This document shows, piece by piece, positions 11,922 to 43,239 of a DNA stretch of 64,000 bases; the first letter of the stretch is position 1; each line of letters begins with the position of its first letter. The notes beneath the pieces are model-generated. The model was not told where the DNA came from. It saw only the letters and a program-made list of their open reading frames with translations, and searched no databases. The DNA is from Mesostigma viride (lineage: Eukaryota; Streptophyta; Mesostigmatophyceae; Mesostigmatales; Mesostigmataceae). The DNA lies in contig RPFO01000104.1 in the NCBI GenBank assembly GCA_009746045.1, forward strand, positions 6,750,621 to 6,814,620, read 5' to 3'. The position numbers and the translations under genes are program-made.

Positions 11922-11940
11922 CACTAGGAACTCGGGGGCA

Positions 11941-12320
11941 CTGGTAAAAAATACCACTTTTATCACTTTTTATCACTTTTTACCACTTTTTACCACTTTT
12001 TACCACCCACAAGGAGTAAAAAGCCGTAAAAAGCCGTAAAAAGCCGTAAAAAGCCGTAAAAAGCCGTAAAAAGCCGTAAAAAGCCGTAAAAAGCTGTAAA
12101 AAGCCGTAAAAAGTGATAAAAAATACCACCTTTTACCACTTTTACCACCTAACGGAGGTGGTAAAAGTGGTAAAAGGTGGAAAATGGTGGTAAAAAGCCG
12201 TAAAAAGCCGTAAAAAGCCGTAAAAAGCCGTAAAAAGCCGTAAAAAGCAGTAAAAGTGGTAAAAAGTGATAAAAAGTGGCTAAAGTGGTAAAAAGAACAC
12301 CACGACGAGCACAAAAGTGG
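11941..12320. repeat. CACTA left subterminal array
   Basis: Runs of the 11-mer TTTTTACCACT at 11950-12005, then nine or so copies of GTAAAAAGCC(C) at 12016-12110, a short palindromic TACCACCTAACGGAGGTGGTA near 12140-12165, and more GTAAAAAGCC and AAAGTGGTAA units to 12320. These are likely transposase-accessory binding sites. Confidence 0.75.
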
Positions 12321-12460
12321 TAACAAACACAAGGGCTGAACCGACAACAAGTCAGTTTAGGCCCAAACAATGAGTGATGCATCTTTATTCAACATAATAT
12401 CGGCATGATTACACTTGTGAGCAGCATCTAATGAGGCCGCAAAATGCTGGCGCAGCAGCA

Positions 12461-13430
12461 TCAATCAGAATCATCCTTGGCATCACTACCGTTAAAATCA
12501 CTGTCATTCCCCTCGTTGCTAGGGGTTTGTTCTCTATAGTCCCTGACCGTGCGCGCGCGTGCACTTGTGCGCAACGGGGGCATGGGCTCCTTCCCCTTGT
12601 GTGATGCAGGCGCCAAAGCCTCAGATTTCTTCTTTCTCTTGCGAGGCGGGGCTAGCTGCGCGTGAGGGTTCGATCTGCCGCCGTGGTTGCCGGCGCGGGC
12701 TGCCGTTCAGCGGGCGGCTTCTTTTTCTTGCGCGGCGGGGCTGCGCGTGAAGGTCGTGCCGCCGTGCTTGATGGCGCGGGCGACGGATCAGCGGGCGGCG
12801 GTTCAGCGGGCGGCCGACCGGCCGTTCAGCGGGCGGCTCAGGTGGGAAGTACCTGATGTCTTCCTGCCACCTTGTCGCCGTGCTTTGGAAAAACTCGTTC
12901 TCCAAAGCCCACCCGGTTGCCAGGTGACGGGGCAGCTTGCAGTGAATGACCGAAAGCTGGGGCTGATGCCGTGGGTCCAGCACAAACCCAACAGAGCTAA
13001 CAGATGTTGGCCACACTAGCTTTGCCGTGCGTGGTGCCTCGGCGCTGCATGCGGACCAACACCAAGCGTTGATCCCGAATGTAAGCCACCTCCGATGCAT
13101 CGAAAAGCTCTACTCTCAGCACAAGCTGTTGAGTCCAGTTCCCCACCGCGGCTGCACCAGCTTCGCCACGAGAATGTGGGTCAGGTAGCCGTACTGAGTG
13201 CTGCTTCCCTCCTTATGGTAGGCTACACCACAGTTTGCAGTCCGCCATGCTTGCTTCCTGTCAGCTTCTTTTGTCCGGTAATTGAAACCGTACTTAAGTG
13301 CACCCTATCATACTCCTCAGCCTTGAGCTGCACGCCGGCTGCTGCAGCCTGGACAAGCTCCGGGACCAGCGGCTGCTGGTTGAGTCCGATCCAGTCTTTG
13401 AGCCATGAGAGGTCGCTGCACAAGGGCCGC
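12461..13430 (-). pseudogene. CACTA Tnp2-like gene, C-terminal exon region
   Basis: The 3' splice site GCATGCAG precedes 13430. The frame begins RPLCSDLSWLKDWIGLNQQP, then a one-base shift near 13310 leads to KYGFNYRTKEADRKQAWR and AYHKEGSSTQYGYLTHILV, matching the YYG..ThIL region near the end of Tnp2 transposases. A further shift or intron leads to VGFVLDPRHQPQLSVIHCKL. Pro/Arg-rich repeats (PLNRRP) and an acidic tail ending DAKDDSD at a TGA (12461-12463) finish the protein. The order is normal for the family; the reading frame is not intact. Confidence 0.65.
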
Positions 13431-13585
13431 CTGCATGCACATCGTATACAAAGCAAGATAGCAATGCAAGAAAAAAAAATTAGAATAACGGCAGTAGTCC
13501 TTGGAAATCAGATGAAGTTCCATATACTGAAAGAAAATCAGCTCAAAGAATAGCAACTTACAATAATAGGACAGCGGCGTCTTAC

Positions 13586-13788
13586 CAGTAGGCCTCATCG
13601 CCGTTGACTTCGGGATCTTTGTACTCCGCATTGGGCAGCGCATACTCCAACAAAATCGCGCCCACTTCATCAGATTCCGCGGCGGTGAAAGTGTAGAAAT
13701 TCTTAACCTTGCGGCTGCGCCCCCCCAACTCGACCTTCTTGGACGGGTCTGCGTGGATGACGTCCCAGATGTAGTAGCGGTCTTTTGG
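13586..13788 (-). CDS. CACTA Tnp2-like gene, internal exon
   Basis: The exon is set by TTTCAG before 13788 and CTG|GTAAGA after 13586. It encodes PKDRYYIWDVIHADPSKKVE through PNAEYKDPEVNGDEAYW. It is open throughout and joins in phase to its neighbours: the upstream exon ends TGGATG, and the downstream exon completes a Trp codon. Part of the C-terminal half of the transposase; no catalytic motif is assigned here. Confidence 0.7.
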
Positions 13789-13954
13789 CTGAAAGAAAAA
13801 AAAGAAAGCAAACAAGACATTGCAAGCAGCGCACACAAATATGCACAGAAATTAGCTGCATGCAGCACAAGACCGGGCCACAAGCAGCGCGTACATAACA
13901 CTAAATCTGCACACAAATCCATAAAAAAAAAATCGGTCACTAGCGTGTACTTAC

Positions 13955-14482
13955 CATCCAGGTTTTCACCATGTGATAGGCCAGATGGGTCAGCGCCTCA
14001 GACTTGCGATATGCTCCGTCCATAGAGCTCTCCACATTGACGCTGGACAGCTTAGCTTTCGTGATGGCCCCCATCATCCGCTCGCCCGACGCCATGGTGC
14101 GGGTGTCACATCGACCCAACAAGGGGATTTGCTGGGCCAGGTGGGCCATCATATGAACAGATTTTGCCATCTCGATCAGACGCTGGCGCTATACGCTCCA
14201 TCGCCACAGCAGCAAGCAAAAACATCACGCCGCAGTCATCCAACTGCTGCTGAGTCGCCGGGCCGCTAGAAAACACAAAGTCCCAGGCCGCTGATTGAAG
14301 GAGAAATGCATGCCGTGCATCGTCATCTAACCGCCCACGCAAGATGGTCGGGAGTTGCTTGCAAAAGTAGAGGATTTTGTCACGCGTCTTGGATTTTTCA
14401 GTACTCTTCGCATCGCAGAGCAAGCCACTGATCCGGCTGGTGAAGTAGTCGGGTAGGCTATGCGCCATGATGTCATCGAGAC
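13955..14482 (-). pseudogene. CACTA Tnp2-like gene, exon with DUF4218-like region, frameshifted
   Basis: Acceptor GCGCAG before 14482 and donor ATG|GTAAGT after 13955. The first part reads LDDIMAHSLPDYFTSRISGL and QLPTILRGRLDDDARHAFLL. Near 14180 a one-base shift moves the frame to MAKSVHMMAHLAQQIPLLGR followed by ASGERMMGAITKAKLSSVN. The order LP.ILRG, MERIAP, HM.AHL, GERMMG resembles the DUF4218 segment of plant CACTA transposases. The shift disables this copy unless a small intron is missed. Confidence 0.65.
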
Positions 14483-14638
14483 CTGCGCATTACAACCACA
14501 CGCAAAAAAATAACACATAGTAGTAACACGACAGCCGAAAAAAATAGTCAGTCCTATGTAAATCACACAGACCATAGTCAGTCCTACATATTAAATTTCC
14601 AAATTACGGGAAAAATAAAAACCCAATGTCACACTTAC

Positions 14639-14912: not shown

Positions 14913-15047
14913 CTGCATATAGTACAAACAGAAAAAAAAACAATATTACATCAGCTTTCCATGTGAACAGATAGGCCACAGTCAATATATGCATTGAAGC
15001 AACAATCATGTGCAATCAAATGATACAATGAAATGTGTAGCAATTAC

Positions 15048-15790
15048 CGCTTGTGCAATGAATGACCCGCTTGAAGTTGTTGGGACACAGATGGAACTCG
15101 TCAATAAAATGACGGATCTTCAGGTGAACCCAGTACGGTAACTTAAGAAACGGCTCGGGCTGCTTTTTTAGCGTAGCACAGTACTTCAGGTAGCCAGCAT
15201 GGTCCATCTCCTGAACAACAGGAGCGTGAGCCGGCCGGCGGGGGTCACCCTCGGGAAACATGCGGTCATTGCCATGCAAGGAGAACGATATACAGCGATT
15301 TGAGATAAAAACCCCACGCCACTGATCACCATGTAGGACGCATTGATAGTACCCTGCATCTGGAATGTTCAGGGACTTGGAGTATGCCGGGTAGTCGTGA
15401 ATTGTGCCAGCAAGAATGGACCTCACAAATGTCGTAGTGTAAACACCGGCCACGTCCAGCGTCACATCACAAATGTAATACCCCTTCCACAGTACCAGGA
15501 AGTCCTCAGCGATCAAGTCCAAAAAAATGGTCATGTTCTTCGGTGCCTTCCCCTTCATGGCACCCACAAGAAGCACCATAGGGCAAAAACGCCCATTCAC
15601 CATAACCCACTCGGGCAAGTTCACACAGGAAACAAACGCGGGCCAACTGCTGTGGGTATCCATGAAAGACCTTGGACATACTCCGTCAAAATTCAGAAGG
15701 AAGATGGTGTTCCGCGGCTGGCTGCGAAAGTCCCAGTTGTTCTTTATGTGCTGGATGGCACGGCTGTCTGCATGCACGAACAGGTCCATG
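15048..15790 (-). CDS. CACTA Tnp2-like transposase, central catalytic-region exon
   Basis: A long open exon encodes DLFVHADSRAIQHIKNNWDF, RNTIFLLNFDGVCPRSFMD, SSWPAFVSCVNLPEWV, a GKAPKNMTIFLDLIAEDF block, and TIHDYPAYSKSLNIPDAGYY. This is the series seen in Tnp2 transposases: RN..L..N.DG, SSWP, NLP, the GPK.PK..i..fL block, D(F/Y)PA...L, and a CxxC-like G.YYQC. The donor CAAGCG|GTAATT ends it at 15048. The upstream splice acceptor is uncertain. The chromovirus sits just upstream (3' LTR begins at 15895), separating it from the N-terminal exon at 36642-37293. Confidence 0.85.
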
Positions 15791-15889
15791 CACAATTAGA
15801 AACACCAGACGTAAAAAGAAAGGTATCCATCAGAGCAGTACAAACAAAAGCTACGCGCCAGAGGAAAAATCTCGAACTTGATACTTTGG

Positions 15890-15894
15890 CACAC
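15890..15894. repeat. Left TSD of the chromovirus (CACAC)
   Basis: CACAC here and at 36637-36641, directly outside the LTR termini TGTTACG and CGTAACA. A 5-bp duplication is standard for Ty3/gypsy integrases. Confidence 0.9.
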
Positions 15895-16458
15895 TGTTAC
15901 GTCCTGAACTTCTACCTCCACCTCTACCTCTACTGGGCCTGATGCTACCTAAATTGGTCAGGCCTCCTCTACTCAAACCCCTAGCGAAAGACGAACGAGA
16001 CGGAGCTGATCTCAATGCATTCACGTATGTGTTGCTATAATACGCCATACAACCATTTACCCGAACCCGTTTATTCCAGGAATAGAGGAAGGAAACACAC
16101 TACACTGCCGTGACCCAAGCCTATATGTGTTAATTCATTTAACACACGCCGAGTGACCACACGAGGGGTGGAACGTGCATAAATGGTCACCAACGGTCCA
16201 ACATGCTCGGGCCGACATGGCCCTCGCCTACAGATGCACAGGCAGCTGCACAGATGCACGCTGGTCCACTACATTCTACCAAAGGATAAGGACCACTAAT
16301 AAAGTACGCGGCGCGACGCCCAAAAGCACCCAATGTACCACAGTACTGTTACGAGGACAATAGTGTCCCAGTTGGAACTACACGTAAACCTAGGAACAAC
16401 CGAGGCAAAGGACCTAATTTACGTCCGTAACTACAACGAATTGTTACGCTACGTAACA
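15895..16458 (-). repeat. Chromovirus 3' LTR
   Basis: 564 bp, TGTTACG...CGTAACA. It matches the split 5' LTR except for about four substitutions. It encodes the start of a small RG-rich ORF (MAYYSNTYVNALRSAPSR from 16048) that reads outward across the TSD into the CACTA gene; this is probably fortuitous. Internally adjacent PPT at 16459-16472. Confidence 0.9.
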
Positions 16459-16833
16459 CCTCCCCCCCCACAAAGGTAGGGAGCCCTCTCCCTACGCACG
16501 GGGAGGAAACCAAAGGGGTAGGAAAAACCTAATGCACCCAGCACACACCAACACAATCGACAGGCCATCCAAGATACAAAGCACCAATAGTTCACTCGGT
16601 CTCCACCACCACGCCGCGGGTGGTGTAGGGTTAGCCAGCACCAAGCCTGGTGGGAGGTTCCCCTAACTGCCTGGAACGGAGTCCTTGCCGGGGGGGGACG
16701 GCACTGGGCAGGACACACAGAGTAAACAAATCAGTACCAAGGACCAAGAACAGCCAATCAACTGGCCAGAATATGAGGGCGACTCTATATACCGGAGGGA
16801 CAACACCCTCAGGTCGGGCCTAAGGCCCTCTAT

Positions 16834-17256: not shown

Positions 17257-17257
17257 G

Positions 17258-20127
17258 CTAGCCCGAGGAGGGGGATGGCCACGGGAGTCCAGACCCTGCA
17301 TGGCCCGGGATGGGCGCTGGACGACGGGCATCCCACTCCAGGATGGGCTGGAGAACCGTACTGTATGTAGCACCCGGCACCGCAGGAAACTCGACCGTAA
17401 GGGCATCTGAGGCCATAATGCCCAGAGGCGGAGGGTAAGCCCACTGGAACCCACCGTAGGTGTCCAAGTCATTGTGACGCCTAGCCCAGCGATACAGAAC
17501 GCGCCGAACCAGGATCTCGCCCTGGAACACAGGATCAGCTAAAATAACCATATCGAAAGGAGGCCGATCAGTCTCAATGGGTAGGCCACGGTCCCGCGGC
17601 GCCCGACACACCTGGGAGAACCCGTAGGACATGGACGAAATGGCAAGCTCGGCGGAGGCGCGCGGCAGGTCACACTGTCGGCATGCGAGCGCAGACATAC
17701 CGTACCCAGGGACGGGCGTGTCGCGCGACTCCGGCGTCGCATGCACCACAGAAGGGGCCCGGTCCCGATCGCCCTGGGACAACTCCCGGAGGGAATCAGC
17801 AGCGCGGGTGGAGTTAGGTTAATATTGTGCGGAAACCTTTTTGCCACTTGGGCTTCTCAGGTTCCGCACAATATTACCGGCGATAACCACTCGCCGGACA
17901 CTCAAGTTCACACCGGTGTGAACTTGAGTGTCCGGCGAGTGGTTATCGCCGGTAATATTGTGCGGAACCTGAGAAGCCCAAGTGGCAAAAAGGTTTCCGC
18001 ACAATATTAACCTAACTAAAACCTAGCCTCTTGGGGCGAGGACGAATCACTAGGCTCGGAACACCCGTATGCATGAATATGATCGAATATAAGCATCTCG
18101 TTGGTGCAAATATCGATATGAATATAATCGAATATGAGCATCTCCTTGGTGCGCATATGATTAGAGCCGGGTGCCAAATCGGAACGAATTATTCCCCAAA
18201 TAATCCGCTTCCGAGTGGATTCGAACCTGCGCCCCGCAAGGATGTGAACTTGAGTGTCCGGCGAGTGGTTATCGCCGGTAATATTGTGCGGAACCTGAGA
18301 AGCCCAAGTGGCAAAAAGGTTTCCGCACAATATTAACCTAACTAAGACCTGGATCCTTGCGGGGCGCAGGTTCGAATCCACTCGGAAGCGGATTATTTGG
18401 GGAATAATTCGTTCCGATTTGGCACCCGGCTCTAATCATATGCGCACCAAGGAGATGCTCATATTCGATCATATTCATGCATACGGGTGTTCCGAGCCTA
18501 GTGATTCGCCCTCGCCCCAAGAGGCTAGGTTTTAGTTAGGTTAATATTGTGCGGAAACCTTTTTGCCACTTGGGCTTCTCAGGTTCCGCACAATATTATG
18601 TACCGGCGATAACCACTCGCCGGACACTCAATTAGTTCACACCGGACACTCAAGTTCACACCGGTGTGAACTTGAGTGTCCGGCGAGTGGTCATCGCCGG
18701 TAATATTGTGCGGAACCTGAGAAGCCCAAGTGGCAAAAAGGTTTCCGCACAATATTAACCTAACTGGTGGCGCGAGGATCCGGACCGCTGGCCCGAACAA
18801 CCGCAGCCAAAGACCGCGAGGCCGAAGGGGCAGGGGCCGAAGCAGGGGTAGGAACCGGCACAGACGCAGACGGCGCCGGTACAACAGGAGGTCGCGCCGG
18901 ACCCGCGGCCGAAGGGGGTCGCGACGGACCCGCCACCGCAGCTGGCGCTCCGGTCTCCGGTGGCGGCGCACCCTCAGGCCACATGTTGAAAACAGGGCCC
19001 GTAGGGACAGGCAATCCGGCATAAGACTGGTTACCATCCAAACTCCAGTCGGGCACCGGGATCCTCTGCGGGGGACCACCCTCCCAAAGCCTGGGGAGAC
19101 CGCCCGTGTCGCTAAAGAAACCCCGCAATGGCTGCGATGGCGCGGCGGGCGGCCCGGAGGCGGCGACGGCGGGCGCGGCCGCTGGGGCGGAAGACTCGCG
19201 CAGAGGCGCAGGTACGTCGGTCGCAGGCGCAGAGGCAACCAGAGGCGTAGGAGCCGCAGCAACAGAGGAAACCGCAGCTACCGAAGGCTCGCACAGCGCA
19301 GGCGAAACCGTAGGCGCCGAGGCAACCGAAGGGGTAGGGGGCGCAGATACCACAGACACCCCACCTGGCGTGGCTGGGGCAGGCTCCTGGGCCGCCATGA
19401 AGGCCCCGAATGCCGCGGTCAGGGACTGGATCTGGGCCTGCATCGCAGAAACAGTCGCCGAGAGATGATCAGGCTCGCGATCCAAACCCAAAGGGGTAGG
19501 CTCCACCGACGCGCGCCGGGTCGACCGAGGTGAAGACGGGACAGGGGAAGGAGCCGACACTGAGGAGGAGGACGCTGCACTGGAGGCCGAATACTCTGGA
19601 GTGTACTGCGCCTCGACTGGTGCGTCCGTAGGGGAAGGGTCGCCAACTGCTACTCCCGCTGACTGGTCTGCGATTTCCATGAACTCTACTGCCCGTAGGA
19701 GGTCACAGGGGTTGTCATCTACCTCTGCCTCACCCTCGCCCGGAAGCCAGGGGAACACCTCCCGTAGGCAGGAGCGGCCCACAGGGGTAGACAGGTAGGA
19801 AAACACCCGGGGGCACTGAAGGACAGCGGCTATCTGCTCCAAGGCTGGACAGCGGGAGCCACACCCTAAAAGACAATGCCCGGCATCGTCGAACCCATGC
19901 ACAACTAGCTGTTGCGGATCATCGGGGGCCGGGCCGAACCACGCGACCCCAAAGAGAGCAGCCCTGACTAAAGTCGCATGCTGAGCCTGGAGGGCAGGCT
20001 GAATGAGGCCACCCGGATAACTGGAACGTGACACCCAGCGGCCCGGAAGGGCCTCGAAGTAGAGCTCTGGGTCCGGTGGTGGAGGGGAAGGCGGCAGGCT
20101 CTCCGACGGATGGGTAGAGTCAGCCAT
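17258..20127 (-). pseudogene. Chromovirus ORF3, extra ORF downstream of the chromodomain, split by a foldback element
   Basis: Starts at ATG 20127 (MADSTHPSESLPPSPPPPDP). It has an N-terminal globular part with ARAALFG-type and HCLLGCGSRCPALEQIA stretches, a predicted coiled coil (LSATVSAMQAQIQSLTAAFG), then a long Ala/Pro/Val-rich region. The frame is interrupted at 18770 by the 954-bp element and resumes at 17811 in phase once one GGTGG copy is removed, ending at 17258: roughly 635 codons. It occupies the env position of a retrovirus-like element, but no signal peptide or membrane span is evident, so an envelope role is not supported. It could be a gag-like duplicate or captured host sequence. 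Unrecognised. Confidence 0.6.
17812..18765. mobile_element. Foldback element, 954 bp, with nested palindromes
   Basis: TSD GGTGG at 17807-17811 and 18766-18770. Built from one ~98-bp arm h (ending AATATTAACCTAACT) and a ~200-bp spacer Y in the order h'-h-Y-h-Y'-h'-h, where a prime means reverse complement. 17812-18015 is a near-perfect palindrome. Y' contains GGTTCGAATCC (near 18369), a match to the pol III B box, and its complement is in Y. No ORF of its own. The ends AGTTAGG/CCTAACT and the 5-bp TSD do not identify a superfamily. Confidence 0.85.
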
Positions 20128-24019: not shown

Positions 24020-24322
24020 CTACTCTCCCAGCTTGACGGCGACCCGCCCATTACCTGTCAAAAAAGTGTCGTCTTCGTATCCCTGGACGCGGAAGGGTTC
24101 TTGCAAAGGCGTATGTGACAAAGGACCGTCGTCTCGTTCTCTACCTACGAAAGTTCCTCCGGAACCATTGTTACGTCCTGAACTTCTACCTCCACCTCTA
24201 CCTCTACTGGGCCTGATGCTACCTAAATTGGTCAGGCCTCCTCTACTCAAACCCCTAGCGAAAGGCGAACGAGACGGAGCTGATCTCAATGCATTCACGT
24301 ATGTGTTGCTATAATACGCCAT
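24020..24322 (-). CDS. Small RG-rich ORF starting in the chromovirus 5' LTR
   Basis: MAYYSNTYVNALRSAPSRSP, then an RGG-like run (SRGRGGGRSSGR), reading from LTR through the PBS region into the leader and ending VKLGE. A donor-like ACAG|GTAATG lies near 24062, so it might supply a spliced 5' coding exon. It may equally be chance; no homologue is recognised. Confidence 0.3.
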   Translation of the reverse strand: MAYYSNTYVNALRSAPSRSPFARGLSRGGLTNLGSIRPSRGRGGGRSSGRNNGSGGTFVGRERDDGPLSHTPLQEPFRVQGYEDDTFLTGNGRVAVKLGE

Positions 24323-24446
24323 ACAACCATTTACCCGAACCCGTTTATTCCAGGAATAGAGGAAGGAAACACACTACACTGCCGTGACCCAAGCCTATAT
24401 GTGTTAATTCATTTAACACACGCCGAGTGACCACACGAGGGGTGGA
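24169..24446 (-). repeat. Chromovirus 5' LTR, inner part
   Basis: The first 278 bp in plus coordinates of the right-hand LTR (TGTTACG...GGGGTGGA), cut by the Copia insertion. It continues at 36346 after one GTGGA duplication. Identical by eye to 15895-16172 except for one substitution (AAAGACG against AAAGGCG). Confidence 0.9.
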
Positions 24447-24904
24447 AGTTAGATGAGATGCTTAGGCTGACACACGGATTTCCGGCCTGCGCGCCGCGTA
24501 TTGCCTACCGCGGCTGAGCGGGACACCTCAGTACTGTACGGCAGGGCGTACGGTACTGAGGCGTCAGGTGGACTGACGTGCAGTTAGTGCCAGACTGTTC
24601 CTAGGTGCTAGCTCGACCCGCCAGGTCCGGTGTAGCCGGGCCTGACGGGCCGAGTCTTAGCTGGTTGCTAGTGACGTGGTCGCATGGCATTGCAGTGTAC
24701 AGTTGTCCACTGGCAGGTGCTGCAGTGAGCACCGCCATAGGCATATAGGCGTAGCACTGGGGAGTGCCGCAGCACCCGAGTTTGCCCAGACGTTCCATTC
24801 TGAGCCCTCAGCTTACACTACTCTCTCATTGTATTATTGCTAATACAACCATCATTCCATTTCAGCTTCGGCAGTTGTCCACCGTCGTTAGACTCGATCC
24901 AACT
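24447..24904 (+). repeat. Copia 5' LTR
   Basis: 458 bp, inverted termini AGTT/AACT. The following TGGACTGAAAAGC may be the primer-binding site, though it is not a match to the common initiator-Met PBS. Six of the seven differences from the 3' LTR fall between about 24550 and 24600. Confidence 0.9.
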
Positions 24905-28671: not shown

Positions 28672-28715
28672 GTTTGGGAGGCATTCATGAAGGAGCTAAC
28701 TGACCTCCTCTCCAC

Positions 28716-30480
28716 CAGAGTGAGATCGTACGTTATACGCGTTATACGGTCACGGTGGAGTATAATATATAATACGGTATAATACGGTATAATACGGTAT
28801 TATACGTTTTCGTACGGACACACTCAGAATACTCTGATTTTACACATTTTAAGACACCCACCATCAATCCACATGTTTTTAACACTGTTTTGGACATAAT
28901 CCAAGGTTGCCCTACCCTCGGCTATACTCTATACGGTGGATATTGTGGACACGATCGATGTATTGCATGTAATACTGAGAATGTAAACGTGCGCATGCAT
29001 AATTGTGTGTATGTGTATATATGTGGCTTTATATTGGTTATGTTTTATATTGGTTATGTGTACTTGGGTGCCTTCACTTTGATGCAAGTAATTATATATT
29101 TTAATATATATATGTGGCTGTGCATGCACGCAAATACTACAGTAGTATACAATTAATGCATGTAGTATGTTTGCATGGTGCGATGCTATGTGAATATACT
29201 GAGCTGCATGTGACTACAGGTGTGTGACTCGTGGTGTGCATTAATTAATTAATTAACTGAATTAATTAATTAATATTAATTAATCTCGTGTCCCCGTTGG
29301 GGAACCACGGAGGCTAAACAGGTGGGGATGTGATAAGTAACTCACATATTCTCACCTTCCATACAACAACCTTGTTTTCCAGCAGGCTGAAGAGCATGAC
29401 AGGCGTCTATGAGCTCGCCAGCTCCTTGCAACGGTGATGCCGCTCCCAGGCAGCTAGGGTCCTTGACTACGCAATATAGAATGCCTACCGTGTGAAAACC
29501 TCCATACAGGAAGCGTAGCAAAGCCAGATAACTGCCCGATCAATTCTGGGTAGCTTTAGGAAGCATGGCATACGCAGCGTAAGGAAAACCATTGAAAGCT
29601 GCGGAAAATCTGATAGCACAACTGCAACAAGTGGAGAACAAAATAGCAAGAAAAACCCAGAAACGGCGCAAAAAGTTTCATGCCAGGTTCATTAAGAGCG
29701 CAAACAGACTGGGCGGTGACATGCGGCAAATCAACGTACCACGGCCGGCATTATTTCCTACCCAGGCGCGCAAGAAAAGCCAGCCAGCCATGGATGGATT
29801 AACCGCGGATCGCGCAGGCCTGAACGAAATCATTTTAGAAATGACAGGAAATGGCCGCAGATCGAAGATGCTTAGGTTATTTTCATGGTGTCCGTTACTA
29901 AACGGCTCTTGCTGCATCAAAATAACCCACGAATGTCGAGTTCTACCGTCGCAGGCACACATGCTAGATTATTCATCGCGGCCAAATTGACGTTGGATGA
30001 GACCCCCGTCCAAATCTGTACCAACAAAGGCAGCGAATTTGCAAATAGTGCAGATCTTGCTATGAAACATCATAATAGAACATCACTTTTAACCATCGGC
30101 TTAATTTTTTCGCCTGTCGCCCGCCGGATTAGCCATATTTTAACGGAACGCACGTCGCCATGGCCACCTCCGCACGGTGCGCGCACTGTGCACCACAATG
30201 TCAAAATAAGATCGCGTCGAATTGTGAAAGTTCAGACGGGTCAGTACTTATAGTAGAGATACGAAATCTGTGGCTTCAAATCGTTGCCCTGTCGTTCTGG
30301 CATCCTAGCCGCGCAAAACGTAAAAAAAACGCGGAAAACACGGCATTATACGGTATTATACGGTATTATACGTCATTATGCGCTAAAACGTATTACGTAT
30401 GAAAAATCATACGCTAAAAGCCAGCGTATTACGTATTATACCGTATTATACCGTATTATACGGCGTATGATCTCACTCTG
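28716..30480 (+). mobile_element. hAT-like non-autonomous element R
   Basis: 8-bp TSD CTCTCCAC at 28708-28715 and 30481-30488, which fits the hAT nTnnnnAn preference. Inverted ends CAGAGTGAGAT/ATCTCACTCTG. It is the same family as L in the opposite orientation, with a different ~230-bp internal block (29098-29320) that includes a TTAATTAA tract and a LINE-like GTGTCCCCGTTGGGGAACCAC end. The shared ORF (29592-29990) stops earlier than in L because of a 3-base difference near 29990. Confidence 0.8.
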
Positions 30481-30859
30481 CTCTCCACCCCCTCATCTGT
30501 GGACATATATGGGGCATTCAGGTGGGTAGAGGAATACAGGGTCACCTCCGTAGACTATGTGGCTGAGACCAAGAAATATGAGCTAGCCATCAAAGCACGT
30601 CCGGATGTCCAGCAGCTAGATCACAAGTTCTTGCTGCGTTCCTTCCTTGAGAAACTCAAACTTGACAAAAACACCTACGCTATGCTTGCAACAGGAATGG
30701 CAAAGTACTGGGAGGACATGAAGGAGGCATTGGATTATATCAAGCTGGCCTTGGCTCCCCTTAGCCAGGGGGCCATGGGCACCTCTGTAAAGAGGGTCAG
30801 GGGGGAGAGAGGGAGGAGGAGGATAGGGAGAGGGAAGACAGGAGCAAGAGACCTGTCAC

Positions 30860-31018
30860 ATGGCAGAAGTGAAGTCCCTGCTGGGACAAATGTTTAAGGG
30901 CAAGGGCAAGGGCAAGGGCAAGGGCAAGGGCAGGGGCTGGGGCAAGGGCAAGGGCAAGGGTAAGGGGCAGTCTCCCTCCAAGGGGGGCAGCTCCAGCAAC
31001 AACAACAACAACAGCAAC

Positions 31019-31082
<64 letters not shown>

Positions 31083-31115
31083 GAAGCAGGACAAGGAGGA
31101 CAAGTCTTCTCAGCG
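30860..31115 (+). pseudogene. Copia gag-pol linker with Gly-Lys and (CAA)n repeats
   Basis: MAEVKSLLGQMFKGKGKGKG continues as a GK repeat (30897-30965), then Ser/Asn and a (CAACAA)n tract (31001-31083), then KSSQRCTRCGMKYHCG, the start of a Cys/His zinc-binding motif. The motif finishes in another frame (CRKN...CHKCHGPPHGDPKDC), so one frameshift lies near 31140. It probably corresponds to a nucleocapsid. Confidence 0.55.
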
Positions 31116-33053
31116 GTGCACCCGCTGTGGCATGAAGTACCACTGCGGCCCACCTGCCGCAAGAACGTGGACGAGCTGGGGCATTTGGACGTCCTGTGCC
31201 ACAAGTGCCACGGGCCGCCCCACGGTGACCCCAAGGACTGCAAGCGGCCTCCTTACGGCAAGAAGTGTGAGTCTCCCTCTCATGCTGGCTTGAGTGTGCC
31301 TGCTTCACCTCTTTCATCTGCATGCCCCACTGTCAGAGCAGTGAGCAGTTCTGGAAAGGTGCTACAGCTGGTTTCAGAAGATTATGTCTCTAAACCAACC
31401 TTCACATCTATGGTTCCCAAGGTGTGCAGAGTGTCCCCAGCAGAGGATGCTCAGATCAGTTTTCAGGAGCTTGCTTTGCAGTTGCATTTCCTTTATGGGC
31501 ATGAAGTGAGTGCAGAGGTGGTGGCAGCAGCAATAGGGGGGGCAGCACTCAGACGTGCATGCCAGGTGGTCAGATCCCACTGCCAGCATTGTCAGTTCAA
31601 TGCACCCAAACCCCCTAAGTGGCATGTAGCTACCCCACCTAAGTGCAAGGGCAGGGTGGTAGGAGATGTCTTTCATATCAAAGGACAATCTTACTTGGCA
31701 CTTAAAGATGCATGGTCAAGGTACACAACCATTGAACCATTACCTGGAATGGACAAGACACAGTTGCTCAGGGCTCTCTTGATTGCTCAGGCCAGGTACT
31801 ACCCTGTGGAGGCATTGTTACTGGATCAGCAGTTCACGTGTCTTGCCAATGAACCAGGGTGTGAGGCTATTGATCTGGCTGGGCTAGAAGATCATGAGAG
31901 GCAAGGCATTATTGAAAGGGCCATCAGGTCCATTAAAACCCTTGTAGCCAAAGAAGATGGCAATCTGCTGGCTGACAGTGGGTCATATGCTGACAGAGCT
32001 CTGTGGTCCACCAGGTTGTGCCAAGTCCTCAACAGGAGGCCACTCATGAAAACCCCACAAGGGGTGATCATTACACCAGATGGATTGCATGCAGGCATTT
32101 ATCCACCTGAGGTACTAGCCCTATACAACGCACAGCGAGCACAGACAGCTAGCAGGTTAGCTGTCAAGGATGCAAAGCATCCACGTCCCACCTTCAGAGA
32201 AGGGGATCAGGTCCTATTCTACAAGGAGTCGGGACTAGGCAAGGTGGGTACCTGGCATGGGCCAGCCACCATCCTAAAGTTTAACACCACTGGCAGGACA
32301 GTGTTAGTTAAACACAATGACACGGGAAAGATTCACAGGTGTTCACCTCACAGGATGAAATTGTATTTTCCAACTGTGTCAGACGTGGCAGAGGAGGAAG
32401 AGCTGTTGGCCGACAGCCCTGTACAGTTGCCTGGCATCCCAGCGTTGCCCAGTGAGTGGTTGTTTGGAACACCCACTGGTGAGTGTGAGAGCCACACCCA
32501 CTGTGACACCCAGGTCACCCTTGATGATTGCAGGCAGTCACTGCAGGCTTGGCCCCCTGCAGCAGAGGGTCACATTGGCAAAACAGGTGATCAGCAACCT
32601 ATCACCTCTTCAAGTGTGAACATAGCTCAGCCACTAGCTGCACCTTCCAAACGCAGCCTAGCAGACGCTGTTCGCATTTTACAAGCAGCTCATAGAGCCA
32701 AAGCTCAAACTGCTGCAGGATCAGCTAAGGTGGGGAAGGTTGGGCAGAATGACAATAGCCCATTTATGGTTGCAGTGGACACACAAGCCCAGGTCAGCAT
32801 TATCAGTGCCCTGGCTGTGCCCCATATGCCTTTGGAACCTTCACCCTGGCACCATGTGGCTGATTTCTCAGGGCAGTCATCCCTCAAGGTATTAGGTCAG
32901 GTCATGTTGACTATACTCGGTATCCCCACTCCTTTTCAGGTATTGGAAGGTTATAAAGGGAATGCTTTGTTGGGGGATCCTTTTCTCTGTTACCCTGGTG
33001 TCATATCTCCAGTGATAGACTATCCATCCAGGACATGGGTGGTGTTGATCTGA
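31116..33053 (+). pseudogene. Copia integrase followed by an aspartic protease
   Basis: One 645-codon frame. Residues 10-45 finish a Cys/His cluster. Residues 122-160 have the HHCC integrase zinc finger (LHFLYGHEVS to CQHCQF). The core follows with GDVFHIKG (Asp about 182), ALLLDQQF (Asp about 235) and GIIERAIRSIK (Glu about 265), consistent with D,D,E. The C-terminal domain has FREGDQVLFYKESGLGKVGT and GPATILKF. At residues 553-640 comes a retropepsin-like segment: FMVAVDTQAQVSIISALAVP with a DTQ in place of DTG, and NALLGDPFL. In known Copia elements the protease precedes the integrase; here it follows. A frame change near 33040 leads to RT. Confidence 0.8.
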
Positions 33054-34654
33054 ATCATTTCAAAATTTCTCTTGAAAAACTTCTTAACACCAACATTGCT
33101 TCTGTAAAATTTGCTACACCCAAGTATGCCCCAGGGCAAGAACCCTGTGTGGCAGACTTGGTTCACAACCAAAAACTTCATCCCAACTCATTTGGATTGG
33201 GCAAGCATGATGTGGCTAAAATGTCTCCTCTTTCTTATGAACAGATAGAGCAAGACTGTCGCACACACATAGGATTCCTAAAATGGGTGGAGGCCTTTAA
33301 CAAGGCCAGGGAAGAATGGGTAGTGCCAGATCCTCTTAGTCCTTCTCATACTCCACCTGTCACACCTATTGACAAAAAGCCTGCAGGGTGCAAGCACTTG
33401 CGCCTGAAGTTTGTGTGTAAACATAAGCCAGCAGCAGATGGGTCAGTCATTTTCATGCTAGACCTTGTGTGACAGAGTTCAAGGGCACCACTGATCTGAC
33501 AGAGGCAGAGTTGTACACGCCAGGCATTCAGCAAACATCCCTAAAAATCTTGCTGTCTGTCTTTGTGGGTCATCTCAATGATGGGGATGACTATGTATGT
33601 AAGGCTACAGACATTAAAAGGGCTTTCCTGAAAGGCTCACCTGAGATAGCACAACAAGTGTGGCATGGTCAGGTGTATGTAGTCTCCACTCCCAGAGTTT
33701 GGGCAAAACACATCCCTCAGCAGTACCTGAAAGCTAACATAGGTGTTGAAGGGCTGCAATCAGCTCCTCGCATTTTCAGGATGTCAGCTCAGGCTGTGTT
33801 TGAAAAGCTAGGGGCTAGATATGATGACATAGACCCTTGCTTCTTTGTGGTCCCACACCCTCATGGCACTCACCTTTGTGTGGCATGGGGATGATCAGCT
33901 GATTGCTGGGCCAAGGCGTGCTGTAGATGATTTTATTCAACAAGTGTCACAGCATTTTGAGATTGGCAAGCAAGTAGAGCTGGGCACCACTGCCATAAAA
34001 TTTTGTGGCACAATGTTACAACTCCAGCAGCATCAAAACCAGTGGGTGTGTGCACTTTACTCTCCCAATGATTACATGCACAGCTGCTTGGAGGTTTTGC
34101 AAACAAAAATCAAACCTGGAGCCTGTCCTACCATTAGAGGCAAGCTGGGGTGGTTGTGCTCAACGTGTGCACCTCACCTGGCTGTGGTTAGCAGAGTTGA
34201 TGATGATGTCTTGATGCAAGTAGGTCACAAAGCCATCACCAAAACTCTCCAGGAAGGCCCTCCCCTTATCTTGCACTCCTTGGATCTCCACAAAACCATT
34301 CACATCCAAGCTATGATGGATAGTTCCATGGAGTCCAGGCAGATTACCAAGTTGCAGGCAAGGGAGTCAGGCTTGTATTTTGTGCAGAATGATGATGCAC
34401 CCTTGTCTCTCATTTCATGGTACAGCCGGTTGCATAGACGCAAGGCTGTCAGCAGCAATGCTGCTGAGTGCAGGGCAGTGGTGTCAGCAGTGCTTCATGC
34501 CAGGTACTTGAATCATGTGCTGGTTTGGTTGCAGATGCAAGCAGGCAGCAATGCTGGGGTGGTGGCACACTTGCTCACTGACACAGTCAGTCAGTCCTCA
34601 GTTTCCTTGCTAACCCCTATGCTGTGCACACTGATCTTGACTGGGTGGTCCTAA
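33035..34654 (+). pseudogene. Copia reverse transcriptase and RNase H, three frames
   Basis: Frame 1 (33035-33472) carries LHPNSFGLGKHDVAKMSPLS and HLRLKFVCKHKPAADGSV. Frame 2 (33469-33894) has CKATDIKRAFLKGSPE and a GVEGLQSAPRIFRM motif, equivalent to the DVKTAFL and LYGLKQAPR blocks of Copia RT. Frame 3 (33845-34654) has VWHGDDQLIAGPRRAVDDF, where the catalytic YVDD is GDD-like, then RNase H with QAMMDSS, SSNAAECRAVVSA and LLTD. At least two frameshifts separate these, so no active enzyme would be made. Confidence 0.8.
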
Positions 34655-35887
34655 ACAGGAGTCCACCTACTGGGAGTCCACCCGTCACGTGGAGGACAAA
34701 CACAACGCTGCTGATGCACTCACTAAAGTGCCTCAGCAGGCAGCTGACAATATCAGCTGTTGTACCACTTGATGAACCCCTATGGCAAGCAGGCAACCCT
34801 GCCCCATAGGGGGGACGCCTAGCAGGGTCCTGTTCACCAGGGCCGCCTAGGTCACCCAGTACCCCTTGGGCAGGTCCAAGGGGTAGGTTGTGGCTTCCAG
34901 CAAGGGGGGTTGGTTGGAGTCTGTTTTTCATACATCTGCGTGCCCTATGCCCAATAAAATCTGTTTTGATTTTTTCAACACCATGGAATTTCGTTATGCA
35001 CACCTTCATAGGTGGGCATGGGATGTATCTCACATTTTTCCACTAGGGCGTATGCCTTGGTGGATTGGCCTTGAGCTCAGTGGCTCAGGTGCCCCCATTC
35101 AAGTGGAGGGTCAAAGCTCCCTTGACAGGTGGTTACCCAGGACCCCAGTTCACTGTGGATCTCCTGGGCCACCTGGCCTACTGTTCAGTGGCAGTAAAGG
35201 CATGGGTGCTGTCATGTTGTCTAGTACAACGTGCTCAGCACAGGTGCAGGATGAAATATTCCTGTCACCTGTCACCAGGACTTCAGTCACCATGTGCAGG
35301 GCAGGGGTGGCTGGTCCCACACGTTGTGCAGGTGCAATGTGGCCAGGTCCAGGATGTCATAGTCCTGTCACCTGTCACTAGGACTTCAGCCCCCTCTGTG
35401 CAGGGCAGGGGTGGCTGGTCCTCACATGTTGTGCAGGTACAACATGGACAGTGCAGGGTGCAATAAACCTGTCCACTGTCACTCCTCAGGTTGCAGGTAA
35501 CCTGAGCTCAGTTGACCCAGCCTGGCTGGGTATTTTTCTCTGAGTGGGCGATGATGATGGAACAACATGGAACCTCTTAAACGGTTACCTTGGCATTTTT
35601 TACAATGGCTCTCTTGGCTGGTGATGCACTCCCTGGATAGGCAGACAGGCATAGCTATCTCCCTTGTGAGCTCGCGAGGAGGAGGAACTCCCCGGGCATG
35701 TTGAGCTAAACGTGATGCCATCACAAGTATTGCACGAGTTCTGGGGCCCATCTTTTTCAGTCCAGATGTTGCAGTATGGGTGTCAGTTGCTCAGCACCTC
35801 AGTCAGCTTGGAGTCAGTCTCCTAGCTGGGCAGGGTCAGCTAGGCTTGAAGTCGCTAGCCTTCAACCTGAAAGGAAAACATAATGGG
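34655..35887 (+). other. Copia 3' non-coding region with ~105-bp tandem repeat
   Basis: No ORF with protein-like features was found. At 35225-35470 two to three imperfect copies of a ~105-bp unit share CAGGATG...CCTGTCACCTGTCAC and GTGCAGGGCAGGGGTGGCTG. The region ends in a purine-rich stretch before the 3' LTR. Confidence 0.55.
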
Positions 35888-36345
35888 AGTTAGATGAGAT
35901 GCTTAGGCTGACACACGGATTTCCGGCCTGCGCGCCGCGTATTGCCTACCGCGGCTGAGCGGGACACCTCAGTACTGTACGGCAGGGTGTACGGTACTGA
36001 GGTGTCATGTGGACCGATGTGCGGTTAGTGCCAGACTGTTCCTAGGTGCTAGCTCGACCCGCCAGGTCCGGTGTAGCCGGGCCTGACGGGCCGAGTCTTA
36101 GCTGGTTGCTAGTGACGTGGTCGCATGGCATTGCAGTGTACAGTTGTCCACTGGCAGGTGCTGCAGTGAGCACCGCCATAGGCATATAGGCGTAGCACTG
36201 GGGAGTGCCGCAGCACCCGAGTTTGCCCAGACGTTCCATTCTGAGCCCTCAGCTTACACTACTCTCTCATTGTATTATTGCTAATACAACCATCATTCCA
36301 TTTCAGCTTCGGCAGTTGTCCATCGTCGTTAGACTCGATCCAACT
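35888..36345 (+). repeat. Copia 3' LTR
   Basis: 458 bp, same termini as the 5' LTR, followed directly by the GTGGA duplication and the rest of the chromovirus LTR. Confidence 0.9.
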
Positions 36346-36636
36346 GTGGAACGTGCATAAATGGTCACCAACGGTCCAACATGCTCGGGCCGACATGGCC
36401 CTCGCCTACAGATGCACAGGCAGCTGCACAGATGCACGCTGGTCCACTACATTCTACCAAAGGATAAGGACCACTAATAAAGTACGCGGCGCGGCGCCCA
36501 AAAGCACCCAATGTACCACAGTACTGTTACCAGGACAATAGTGTCCCAGTTGGAACTACACGTAAACCTAGGAACAACCGAGGCAAAGGACCTAATTTAC
36601 GTCCGTAACTACAACGAATTGTTACGCGACGTAACA
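36346..36636 (-). repeat. Chromovirus 5' LTR, outer part
   Basis: Continues the LTR from 24446 after the Copia element (GTGGAACGTGCATAAATGG onward) and ends CGTAACA, followed by the CACAC TSD at 36637-36641. Three substitutions against the 3' LTR were noticed. Confidence 0.9.
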
Positions 36637-36641
36637 CACAC

Positions 36642-38373: not shown

Positions 38374-40129
38374 TTAACCCCTAAATGGGCAGAAATACTG
38401 CCGATGCATCGGCTGTAACTTCACAATTTTGCAAACCAGATGCCATCCAACCCACCCATATCCAATGGCTGTCCTTGGGGGCCAAGCATGTCCATGAGTT
38501 GCCCTTCGGGTTGGTATATCACAACCTTACATATATGCAGGGTATTTCACTCTGCTGTAAGTAATTATATTTTTAATACATATATGCAGGGTAGGCCATG
38601 TATAACTGCCGTCAAAGTCAGGGGGGTCAAGACGAGCGTTTTCATTTTTGGTAGAATGTGCATTGTGAATTATGTTATGAGAGCTAGGCACCTACCACTT
38701 AAGGGATGATAAACAATTAGTTGCTGAACAGTTTGAGCCATTGGGGTCATCATTTGGGTGGGTATACCAGCAGTTACACCCAGTACAGCCCATAGGGGTA
38801 CCGGTGGTAAAAAGCAACCAAGGGGGTAGGGGTGGGCATACTACCTACTAATACCTACTAATATGGCCCCCAACCATGCCACACAATACATTTCCCTTCC
38901 ACAATGATGGGGAAACATAACTGCATCATCACACTGCCCTTACATGGCACCTATGTGCAGGTGCCACCTTGTCCATGCACGTAGGTAACGTGGTACGGAT
39001 ACCCTACGCAAGGCATGCATTCTAGGAGGCAGCCACCAACAAACTAGTGATTTTAAGCCTATTTCAGCCTGCCCTAGCAAGGATAAACTAGGCCTAAGCT
39101 GCTATAGCTTGCCAGGTGATGGCCAGCACACCTGGTGGCACATGCTGACAATGGGAAGCTTCTACTCACCGGTTACATGCTTGATGATGCCACAGAGACC
39201 AGCCAACTGCCTCACACTCATGCAATATGTGTGTGGGAAATGTATAACAAACATATATGGAGGTATTCAAACCCATACAGACTCTAAAACTTATCACCAT
39301 CACCCTGTGGCAGGTCAACTGACTGGTGGAAGCATCTAAGAAGGGTGTTTTAGAAAGGGGCCAGGCCAGGGTCAAGAAAGAGCATGAATAATGCAAAAAG
39401 AATGTGCTACACAAGCTAGAACGTATATATGAACGTCAAACATCGATAGGAAAACGATGCTTAAGCTTTACCAGGCATGGATGGCGTTACCTTGGCCCAG
39501 GCGGTGGCCGCAAAATGGCGCATTTCGGCACGCCAAAGTTGTGCAGCATGGTCGCTGGATTCGGCGATTTCTGGCCACCCTTGCACGTTTACGACTACTA
39601 TGTATCATAAAAAGTACAAAGAAACCAATATATCCTTTAAAATACGCCGGAAAGGTATTGCTGTCAACGTTTCTATCGTCCGGCCTGATCGCAGTTTTTT
39701 CCAGCAAGAACGCTGCCGACACCTATCAAATGGCATTCCCGCGAACCAAAAATTGGCCTGTATCATCTTTAGGACGTATAAAATCAATTTCCTGAGTTTG
39801 GTCAGAAAATTCGAACGAAAACGTAAATGCCATGCGTGGGCGCAAGCCGCCATGGCCAGGTCGTCGTTTTCCGGAATGCACGTTGTACGCGAAAAAGTAC
39901 CCTGACCCCTTGTACTTTGACCGACCAGAACACCTCTATAACTTTGTCAGAAGTATGCAAACCCTAGTACCATGCTGTGAGGAAAATTATAAACTTTCGA
40001 TCTTCTCAGCTAAACTTTTCCTAATTCTCAATAGTTTTCGCGGCATTTGGTCCCCCGAGAAGGGGCCGACGTGTCGGCTGTAACTCAGTTTTAGGCGGAA
40101 AATCGGCAGCCAGACCATTTAGGGGTTAA
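38374..40129. mobile_element. piggyBac-like non-autonomous element PB2
   Basis: TTAA at 38374-38377 and 40126-40129, with inverted ends CCCCTAAATGG/CCATTTAGGGG and further inner similarity around TGCCGA/TCGGCA. Excision to one TTAA restores the reading frame of the surrounding exon, as precise piggyBac excision would. No transposase ORF was recognised. It holds a 33-bp LINE-C tail insertion at 38545-38577. Confidence 0.8.
38545..38577 (+). mobile_element. 33-bp LINE-C 3'-end micro-insertion
   Basis: Flanked by a 16-bp TSD, ACATATATGCAGGGTA, at 38529-38544 and 38578-38593. The 33 bp equal the last bases of LINE-C (9116-9148). It is an extreme 5' truncation by target-primed reverse transcription. 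Confidence 0.85.
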
Positions 40130-41763
40130 GACTGCAAATAACGACCTTTGGCCGTGCATACCTGGTAGAGGGGTATGTCCTCAAGGAACAGGATGGCACC
40201 ATGGTGGATGCTCTCATTAACCGGGTAAAGAAGAGCTGCATAAACTTTCTAGAAACAGCTGTGGCTGACGACAACCGTGCCGAGCTGGATAAGTATGAGG
40301 CATCATGCTGGGTGCTAGACCCGACGACTGGTGAGCTCACCGCCCAGAAGCCCAAGGGCTCCAAACCCAAAGCCCTAAGTGTTGAAGAATTCGTGAAAAA
40401 GGAGCTGAGCCGGTGGCTAAGCAACTGCAGCTCCAAAAAGCGGTAGAGTGCTGGCGCCGAGGACAAGGATGATGACGGCGACCTGAAGGAAAATCGCCAA
40501 GCGCTAAGCGACGTGACGAACATGCCAAAGGTAATAACGCTATCTTTAGCTTCAGGAGTCTGCAAGCTTCTTGGTTTTTTCTTTCATCGCGGGTCTGCTG
40601 TTAACCGACTTCCCGAATGTTAACGTCCTTATTCCATGCCCCGCCCTCTGCTTGCAGGCAATTCCTGCTGCCAAGCCGGCGGCCAAGCCGGCGGCCAAGC
40701 CAGCGGCCAAGCCGGAGGTCAAGCCGGAGGTCAAGCCGGAGGTCAAGCCGGAGGTCAAGCCTGTGCAGCATGCCACAGGCATCCGAGCAGATGAAATTCG
40801 GAGACTCAGAGCTCGGCTCCAAGCCCTTGTCAGAGGAGGAGTTAGAGCAGGAAGTCGCAGGGTACGCGCCTCCACCTGTGGAGGTATCGGATGTGAGGCC
40901 GCCGCCTCCGGTGGCCAAGAAGGTTGTACCGCCGCCCCCTCCCGTTCCCAAGCAGCCTGTCATGCCGCCCCCTCCGGTGGCCAAGAAGGTTGTACCGCCG
41001 CCCCCTCCCGTTGGCACGCAGCCTGTCATGCCGCCCCCTCCGGTGCCCAGCAACGCTGTGCAGCCGTCCCCTCCGGTGCCCAACAACACCGTGGAGCCGC
41101 CCACTCCGGTGCCCAAGCTGGCCGACCTGCCAATGCCGGATGGTCTCCCGCCTGCTCGTGTGCCTGCCATCAAGCCAGATGTCTTCGAGCCCATCACGTC
41201 GCGCCCCGCCGTCAACAAGCCGGCCGCCAGCAACAAGCCGGCCGCCAGCAAGAAGCCGGCCGCCATCAAGAAGCCGGCTGCAAAGCGAAAGCTTCCTAGT
41301 GGTCCCATGGACTTGGGGCTTGCGCACTATCTGAGCACCTTACTGCCAACCGCGGTGGTTCAAGAGCGACCGGGCCCTGGTGGTTTCGGAGAAGCACTGC
41401 ACGGGGCCTTCGTGGCACAAAGGTACAAGTACGAGCGCGATGGGGCGCGGCCGGCTGCGTATGTTTGGGAGCCTGGCAAAGTGGTGGAGGTGAAGCCGAA
41501 GCTCAAGGCCCCTTACGGCACGCGGTTTGTGGAGCGCGATGGGGGCTCGCAAATGCTGTTTGTTGACTTTGCCACGATGCATTATGGTGACGCCGAGGGC
41601 AACGAGAATGCGTGGGTCCTTCTGGGCAACGTCACTGACGACGACCTTCGAGGCGCACGTGCGAAATTGAAGGAGAGTTGGGGGCCAGCAGAGGATCGAG
41701 AAGGAGGAGGTGTCGGATGAGTATGTACCGGCCAAGCGAGCGCGGGCGCCACCCAAGGAGAAG

Positions 41764-42141
41764 GCGTCTGCCGGTGCTCCCTCCGCGCCAGCGATCCCGC
41801 CTGCCTCTAGCTCTTCGACCGCAACGGCGTCTGCCGGTGCTCCCTCCGCGCCAGCGATCCCGCCTGCCTCTAGCTCTCCGGCCGCAACAGCGTCTGCCGG
41901 TGCTCCCTCCGCGCCAGCGATCCCGCCTGCCTCTATCTCTCCGGCCGCAACAGCGTCTGCCGGTGCTCCCTCCGCGCCAGCGATCCCGCCTGCCTCTAGC
42001 CCTTCGCCCGCAATGGCGTCTGCCGGTGCTCCCTCCGCGCCAGCGATCCCGCCTGCCTCTAGCTCTTCGACCGCAACGGAGTCTGCCGGTGCTCCCTCCG
42101 CGCCAGCGATCCCGCCTGCCTCTAGCTCTCCGGCCGCAACG
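41764..42141 (+). repeat. 63-bp coding tandem repeat, six copies
   Basis: Period 63 bp (21 codons), unit beginning GCGTCTGCCGGTGCTCCCTC. Copies start at 41764, 41827, 41890, 41953, 42016 and 42079 with a partial seventh. Encodes an Ala/Pro/Ser repeat in the second CACTA gene. Confidence 0.85.
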
Positions 42142-42849
42142 GCGTCTGCCGATGCTCCCTCCGCGCCAGATCTCACCGAGGCGGAACTGGAGCTTGCCGC
42201 GCTCAAGGCCATGATGGCAAAAGCGCAGCGGAAAGTTGAGCTGGAGCGGCAAGCAAAGGAGTCCCAGAGTCAGACTCCTGATCCGGTAATTTAGTGGAAT
42301 GTTTTTTCTGAAGCACGTTTTAGCTATGTAGTGATGTGGTGTTGTCACACCCAATTGCCATGTGCGTATATTTTTGTTACTCATGAATGTATGTATCACT
42401 CTCATGCTAGGTCATGCATCATACCCACAGGCATAACCCATTTCACCATAGGATGTTTTGCTGGGCAACAACTATCTGCCGTGCCTGACTGCCCCCCCCC
42501 CCCCTGCCTTGCTGCCCTTGTGTCCTCTTCAATGGTGGTGCTCTGTGTGCCTGCAGGCCTCCAGAGCCTGTGCTGGCAACTGTGTGGCTTTGTTCATGCA
42601 AAGAAGCATCATTGATCATGATGACACCTGAAGAAGAAGTAAATTAATTGGCTGGGCTTGATGCGGCCTGTGTTATTTCACAATGGTGTAAACGTATCGA
42701 TGAGACGCCCAATGTGGGGCTAAATCCTCATTGTAAATCAAGAGAGACAACTGTTAATGGGATGTATTATTATTTCTAATAAAGAATCCATTTGGAATGA
42801 TGGCCTGTTAAGCTGTTCTTAACAGTGCTTGTGTTGTAATGCTGGCAAA

Positions 42850-43225
42850 ATCTGCATTTTCCCCTTTTTTATCACTGTCATTTTTACCACTTTGTGGTAT
42901 TTTTTTACCACCCTCATTTTTACCACTTTGTGGCGTGTTTTTACCACCCTCACTTTTACCACTTTGTGGCGTGTTTTTACCACCCTCGCTTTTACCACTT
43001 TGTGGTATTTTTTACCACTTTGACAGTAAAGTGGTAAAACTGAGGTGGTAAAAGGTGGTAAAACGATTTTACCACCTGCTTTTCTCCTAGCGTTTTTCCA
43101 CCGTTTTACCACTTTTTACCACTTTTTACCACTTTTTACCACTTTTTACCACTTTTTCCCACTTTTTCCCACATTTTACCACTTTTTACCACCCACTTTT
43201 ACCACTTTTACCACTTTTACGGTTC
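42850..43225. repeat. CACTA right subterminal array
   Basis: Many copies of TTTTTACCAC and TTTTACCACTTTGTGG, partly palindromic with AAAGTGGTAAAA near 43025-43065, up to the terminal inverted repeat at 43228. Same motif as the left subterminal array. Confidence 0.75.
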
Positions 43226-43239
43226 CTGAGTTCCTAGTG

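Follow-up and report, generated by a model that had tools for sequence, protein, structure and literature searches.

Does a stack of mobile elements lying one within another record separate transposition events, whose order can be read from the joints, or could it have been moved as a composite, or be produced by faulty assembly? The question is raised by a 64,000-nucleotide stretch of the genome of the streptophyte Mesostigma viride (hereafter the window; positions 6750621-6814620 of contig C1801, GenBank RPFO01000104.1, 7,877,820 bases long), in which a LINE-like repeat is interrupted by a CACTA transposon, the CACTA by a chromovirus, the chromovirus by a Copia element and the Copia element by two hAT-like elements, with a foldback in the chromovirus and an element at a TTAA site in the CACTA as side branches. 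I conclude, with a probability of roughly 95%, that this nest arose by independent transposition events that accumulated at a single locus. An earlier note, made from the letters alone, had described the five layers and assigned a boundary to each insertion, and both withstood comparison with other copies: the host flanks are contiguous in all informative copies, one TTAA site having been re-used.

The main chain of insertions

All comparisons were made within the window's own assembly (439,911,974 bases in 2243 contigs). For the joints in the CACTA, Copia and chromovirus elements, the flanks in each host element were aligned piece by piece to other copies of that host, and empty sites were read in the best-scoring copies of each family. 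The alignment of cleaned host elements to their families, which the earlier note had proposed as a check, was carried out in this piecewise form and gave contiguous host sequence wherever a copy was informative. Reading frames across the joined flanks were not relied on, since 31% of random joins are open in some frame, and of the 7 joints only 3 are.

The outermost host is a repeat resembling a long interspersed nuclear element (LINE), present on the minus strand as a part left of the CACTA (11054-11921, delimited by flank alignment) and a part right of it (43240-43368), 84% identical to 45216-46035 and 45075-45204, respectively, on the other strand. The final CA of the former and the initial CA of the latter form the target-site duplication (TSD). 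Alignment within the window yields a paralogue without the CACTA (45075-46035, plus strand), which matches both flanks at 84% and crosses the insertion point with a single CA; the TSD is therefore 2 bp long. The LINE assignment is weak, the open reading frame (ORF) at 44601-44798 having no Pfam match; a motif that may be of reverse transcriptase (RT) type was also noticed.

The CACTA transposon (11922-43239, minus strand) ends in a perfect 12-bp terminal inverted repeat (TIR), CACTAGGAACTC, and its transposase exon (15016-15795, minus strand) matches PF02992 (Transposase_21) with 58.9 bits, the cut-off being 28.6. Twenty other copies were fetched from the assembly for checking the chromovirus and TTAA sites. 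The earlier note had the ends of this element right and gave no TSD, to which CA can now be added. A 3-bp TSD was rejected, 2 bp being found both in the window alignment and in other copies. A TSD of 3 bp is usual for CACTA elements in plants, and 2-3 bp is stated for the group. The present family resembles CACTA/EnSpm elements in its CACTA..TAGTG ends, Transposase_21 exon and subterminal repeats but differs in its TSD, which, read by eye, is 2 bp in all ten copies with both ends inside the fetched stretch.

Within the CACTA lies the chromovirus, a Ty3-type element with long terminal repeats (LTRs) and a chromodomain (15895-36636, minus strand), which has TG..CA ends and is bordered by CACAC at 15890-15894 and 36637-36641. 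Window positions 15894 and 36642 are contiguous to the base in 18 of the 20 fetched CACTA copies; the remaining two (L033 and L042) gave no match on both sides and are uninformative, and the insert is present in 0 of the 18 informative copies. One LTR is intact (15895-16458, minus strand, 564 bp, delimited by genome matches), while the other lies on the same strand in two parts, 24169-24446, which ends with GTGGA, and 36351-36636, delimited by LTR comparison and flank alignment. Other LTR pairs of this family have TG..CA ends in 3/3 cases and a 5-bp TSD in 2/3. The element contains gag together with a chromodomain and an SH3 domain of the Tf2 type, with matches above the cut-offs to PF24626 (53.5 bits) and PF00385 (27.6 bits). 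Read by eye, its ORFs lead from gag and a protease-like piece, the latter below the Pfam cut-off, to the integrase end and the chromodomain; among these ORFs, four of which were run against Pfam, neither RT nor the integrase core was seen by eye, and most of pol appears to have been lost. Without its inserts the chromovirus measures about 7.9 kb by subtraction; two LTR pairs elsewhere span 10.8 kb, and other possible pairs lie at least 13 kb apart.

The Copia element (24447-36345, plus strand; LTRs 24447-24904 and 35888-36345) splits one chromovirus LTR, with GTGGA at 24442-24446 and 36346-36350, and leaves the partner at 15895-16458 uncut. Across its site all 40 chromovirus LTR matches listed are continuous (40 scored of 2303 candidates, the window's own included), 39 of them covering positions 1-564 and one 13-564. 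The Copia LTR itself is 458 bp long and is covered from 1 to 458 by each of the 40 matches listed (40 scored of 900, the window's own two included). Its ends, AGTT..AACT, recur in 7/7 other LTR pairs, with a 5-bp TSD in 6/7; a start at TG was rejected, as both LTR and TSD are consistent with AGTT in the window's element and in those six pairs, and all seven pairs have AGTT..AACT. Matches to rve and RVT_2, both below the Pfam cut-offs, lie in the Copia order, with the integrase upstream of RT. One copy (L191/L033) was read of another Copia family, which is 69.6% alike over 1.5 kb; its LTRs run AGTTA..TAACT and its TSD is ATGAG. LTR ends of the form TG..CA are usual, not obligatory, in Copia elements. 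The unusual ends place the window's Copia beside non-TGCA LTR retrotransposons, for which the sections of PMC5659011 available to this study give TG..GA (Tos17), TA..CA (TARE1), TG..TA (AcCOPIA1), TGTT and AACA; the two families found here differ in ending in the palindromic pair AG..CT (AGTT..AACT), which is absent from the ends described in those sections.

Innermost are two non-autonomous elements, A (27060-28671, plus strand; TSD GTTTGGGA, TIR CAGAGTGCAATC) and B (28716-30480, minus strand, inverted relative to A; TSD CTCTCCAC, TIR CAGAGTGAGATC). Between them remain 44 bp of Copia sequence (28672-28715, plus strand), which hold one TSD copy of each. Both 8-bp TSDs are exact, and both sites are single and uninterrupted in the six other Copia copies compared, of which two stem from a single insertion by duplication. 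An exact 8-bp TSD was also found in 20/20 copies of the A and B types and in 8/10 of a C type. A TIR beginning with CAG is of the type found in hAT elements, and A and B share it, along with the 8-bp TSD, with non-autonomous members of that group; "hAT-like" is accordingly meant as a provisional label given from TSD and TIR only. One 159-aa ORF has no Pfam match, and no transposase was identified, a search for an autonomous partner not having been made.

Elements so alike might have been wrongly joined during assembly, either at A or at the inverted pair. At 24 or more other places, A-type sequence recurs over at least positions 1-1609 of 1612 bp with 100% identity (rounded; 40 scored of 1796 candidates), and A and B form an inverted pair whose 657-bp arms are 100% identical (rounded). 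However, A and B each carry their own exact TSD, their sites stand in the same order in all six other Copias, and matching TSDs at seven insertions, in a contig of 7.88 Mb, would not be expected from wrong joins. A misjoin is therefore very unlikely, and I infer that the locus is correctly assembled, misassembly being excluded only indirectly. The A-type group is very young, and the family has recently been very active.

A second alternative concerns the likeness of A and B, which might be due to gene conversion between inverted neighbours rather than to the arrival of members of two subfamilies. It could draw on the pattern of A-B identity, which drops from a high level in the core towards the left end and also within one internal patch. 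When the terminal 20 columns are set aside, however, A and B differ at 54 positions, while A differs from other A-type copies at 1-17 and B from other B-type copies at 2-9, so that each follows its own subfamily. Gene conversion was rejected on these figures as scarcely credible, and B belongs to another subfamily than A.

Side branches and the order of events

The foldback (17812-18765), in the chromovirus, has ends AGTTAG..CTAACT, the TSD GGTGG and a perfect palindrome of 206 bp (17812-18017); folded as single-stranded DNA it reaches -549 kcal/mol, whereas 20 shuffles average -127. Its site is uninterrupted in five of the ten stretches fetched around chromovirus LTR matches, the other five not being homologous, and the insert occurs in 0/5. 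Ten foldback copies, chosen by a match at both ends of the window's element, all have AGTTAG..CTAACT, and seven have a 5-bp TSD. Relatives of the foldback (L131-L150) are many and rearranged, with 432-bp arms, many at 99-100% identity.

The TTAA element (38378-40125; TIR CCCCTAAATGG), in the CACTA, would be called piggyBac-like from its TSD and TIR. It is the piggyBac transposase that separates piggyBac from Kolobok, which also uses TTAA. Among the 40 matches listed for this element, its own included, 37 cover positions 1-1748, and all ten copies examined have a 4-bp TSD (nine TTAA, one CTAG). Of the 20 fetched CACTA copies, 16 run through the insertion site without a break, and three (L032, L033 and L042) gave no match on both sides. 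In the last, L040, a different TTAA element (near 5708-7055, with ends CCCATGG and another TIR) occupies the same TTAA; the window's own element is thus present in 0 of 17 informative copies. The CACTA pieces in the window contain 15 TTAA sites.

Could some of these layers have been moved together, for instance the CACTA with the TTAA element or the chromovirus with the foldback? The sequence is compatible with such co-mobilization, and only best-scoring copies were compared. Yet the same insert was found at the same site in 0/18 CACTAs for the chromovirus, 0/17 for the TTAA element, 0/5 chromoviruses and 0/6 Copias, and the element that L040 carries at that TTAA differs in its TIR. A composite is hence unlikely, and independent insertion is retained as the explanation.

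The termini and duplications named in the earlier note (CACAC, GTGGA, GTTTGGGA, CTCTCCAC, GGTGG, TTAA and CACTAGGAACTC) are all present, exactly where it had placed them. Boundaries, TSDs and empty sites are direct observations, and termini and TSDs go beyond chance, since the same rules are followed by other copies in this genome. Several points weigh against this account. No exact TSD was found for Copia pair C224, for chromovirus pair C258, for 2 of the 10 C-type hAT-like copies or for 3 of the 10 foldbacks; my guess is that the pairing was wrong or that damage came later. Two of the seven Copia pairs, C1702a and C1702b, have the same flanks and are therefore counted as one insertion copied by duplication. 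Finally, LTR divergence gives nominally the wrong order, with 4/564 differences in the chromovirus and 7/458 in the Copia inside it (Fisher p = 0.24); of the latter seven differences, six are confined to 36 bp. In the portion of PMC7251063 consulted, divergence is higher in the nested element than in its host in about one fourth of cases, and gene conversion is proposed as a contributor.

The events very probably ran as follows. The CACTA jumped into the LINE-like repeat and the chromovirus integrated into the CACTA; the Copia then integrated into one chromovirus LTR, and two members of the hAT-like family landed in the Copia 44 bp apart, in opposite orientation. As side branches, the foldback entered the chromovirus and the TTAA element the CACTA, each insertion leaving the duplication typical of its family. 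For the hAT-like, TTAA and foldback elements, in which no enzyme was found, I infer the enzymes that moved them. The earlier note had taken the order of insertion as fixed. This holds for the chain from LINE-like repeat through CACTA, chromovirus and Copia to the hAT-like elements, but not for the foldback, the TTAA element or A relative to B, and once the side branches are included 48 linear orders are compatible with the nest.

Nested LTR retrotransposons are common in plants and have been surveyed with TE-nester, according to the parts of PMC6911290 and PMC7251063 available here, the former adding that LTRs are not commonly targeted by nested insertions. The present locus is like these nests in that younger elements lie in older ones and nesting supplies an order without a clock; it differs in stacking five element classes and in having a Copia inside an LTR. 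The kind of nest is already known and this locus is a further case, although no such nested locus is named in the literature titles and beginnings of abstracts searched. What it provides is a clock-free order for the main chain together with exact empty sites, where LTR ages would nominally mislead.

Nesting is usual in this genome, since, of the 20 CACTA copies fetched, at least 6 carry other inserts of their own (L031, L032, L037, L040, L043 and L050). L032 is a case of a CACTA in a CACTA: near 1054-5715 it holds another CACTAGGAACTC-ended element, different from its host and about 4.7 kb long.

Matched ends in the hAT-like family

Two features of the elements in the nest, the concerted ends of the hAT-like family and the termini common to foldback and Copia, may count for more than the nest itself. 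As to the first, most of the length of A is like that of B, yet at both ends the 12-bp TIR differs between them at positions 8-9. Queries with the subfamilies gave 1019 to 1917 first-look candidates each. The ends of 35 copies, including the window's A and B, were compared (from L051-L110 and L151-L170); C2200, with a damaged end and no exact TSD, was left out, and the two C-type copies lacking an exact TSD were kept. Ten A-type copies have CAGAGTGCAATC at both ends, and two, plus C1413, which is counted beside the 35, have CAGTGTAAAATC on the left and CAGAGTGCAATC on the right. In the B type, seven copies have CAGAGTGAGATC at both ends and five have CAGTGTGAGATC on the left with CAGAGTGAGATC on the right. 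The C type is more varied: CAGTGTTCAATT on the left is paired with CAGAGTTCAATT on the right in four copies and CAATGTTCAATT with CAGAGTTCAATT in two, while CAGAGTTCCATT stands at both ends of four copies and CAGTGTTCCATT at both ends of one. The two ends are thus identical in 22 of the 35, and the variant they carry differs between subfamilies.

Within-element mismatches between the ends number 19 over the 35 copies, whereas shuffling the right ends gives a mean of 85. For the 8 distinct end pairs the figures are 7 and 22.7 (P = 0.0002, without correction for relatedness). Because the A, B and C types all include left ends with T at position 4, the asymmetric state is probably the ancestral one. 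In at least three lineages, then, one end probably acquired the other's sequence, and in one copy this happened in the opposite direction; the hAT-like tree, in which matched and unmatched copies are mixed, is too shallow for counting events. The likely mechanism is short-tract conversion between the two ends, for example during gap repair. In this concerted change of two 12-bp TIRs the family differs from non-autonomous hAT elements, and no description of it for short hAT ends was met with in literature titles and beginnings of abstracts. How transposon ends stay matched becomes, with these copies, a question that can be tested.

Foldback and Copia termini, and other repeats

The second feature is that the foldback and the Copia element have in common both the terminus AGTTAG and a 5-bp TSD. 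When 59 AGTTAG..CYAACT pairs lying 100-15000 bp apart in the window were tested, only the foldback and the Copia had a 5-bp TSD. Since ends and TSD length agree, use of a Copia integrase by the foldback is suggested. Two observations weaken a shared integrase: the foldback and the Copia LTR agree in no more than their first six bases and one 10-base chance match, being otherwise unrelated, and the inner LTR end of the window's Copia has only AGTT in common with the foldback. That the foldback family was moved by a Copia-type integrase and not by a DNA transposase is thus a doubtful proposal; if it were true, a retrotransposon integrase would insert palindromic DNA devoid of LTRs. The common ends make cross-mobilization directly testable.

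Among known foldbacks, Tetris is similar in the absence of detected coding capacity, in its long, internally repeated inverted arms and in its variable middle. In the excerpt of PMC4079207 consulted, the Tetris TSD is 8-10 bp and most foldbacks are assigned to Mutator; the family described here differs, its TSD being 5 bp, and not of the 8-10 bp Mutator type, in the window and in 7/10 copies. Literature titles and beginnings of abstracts contained none on foldbacks moved by an integrase.

When the CACTA transposase, Copia and chromodomain ORFs served as queries in protein searches, no match was obtained at E 0.001, and scans of viral and prokaryote contigs revealed no relatives of the window's elements, 22 viral contigs with one pattern match each looking like chance. 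The window contains no tRNA and no Rfam match at the gathering score. Outside the nest, an inverted pair (1470-3418 and 58560-60507) of 1.95 kb at 99.8% identity carries a long ORF of an unassigned family, and long arrays of GATGGATG-type units lie next to LINE-like pieces at 46600-47070 and 57630-58560.

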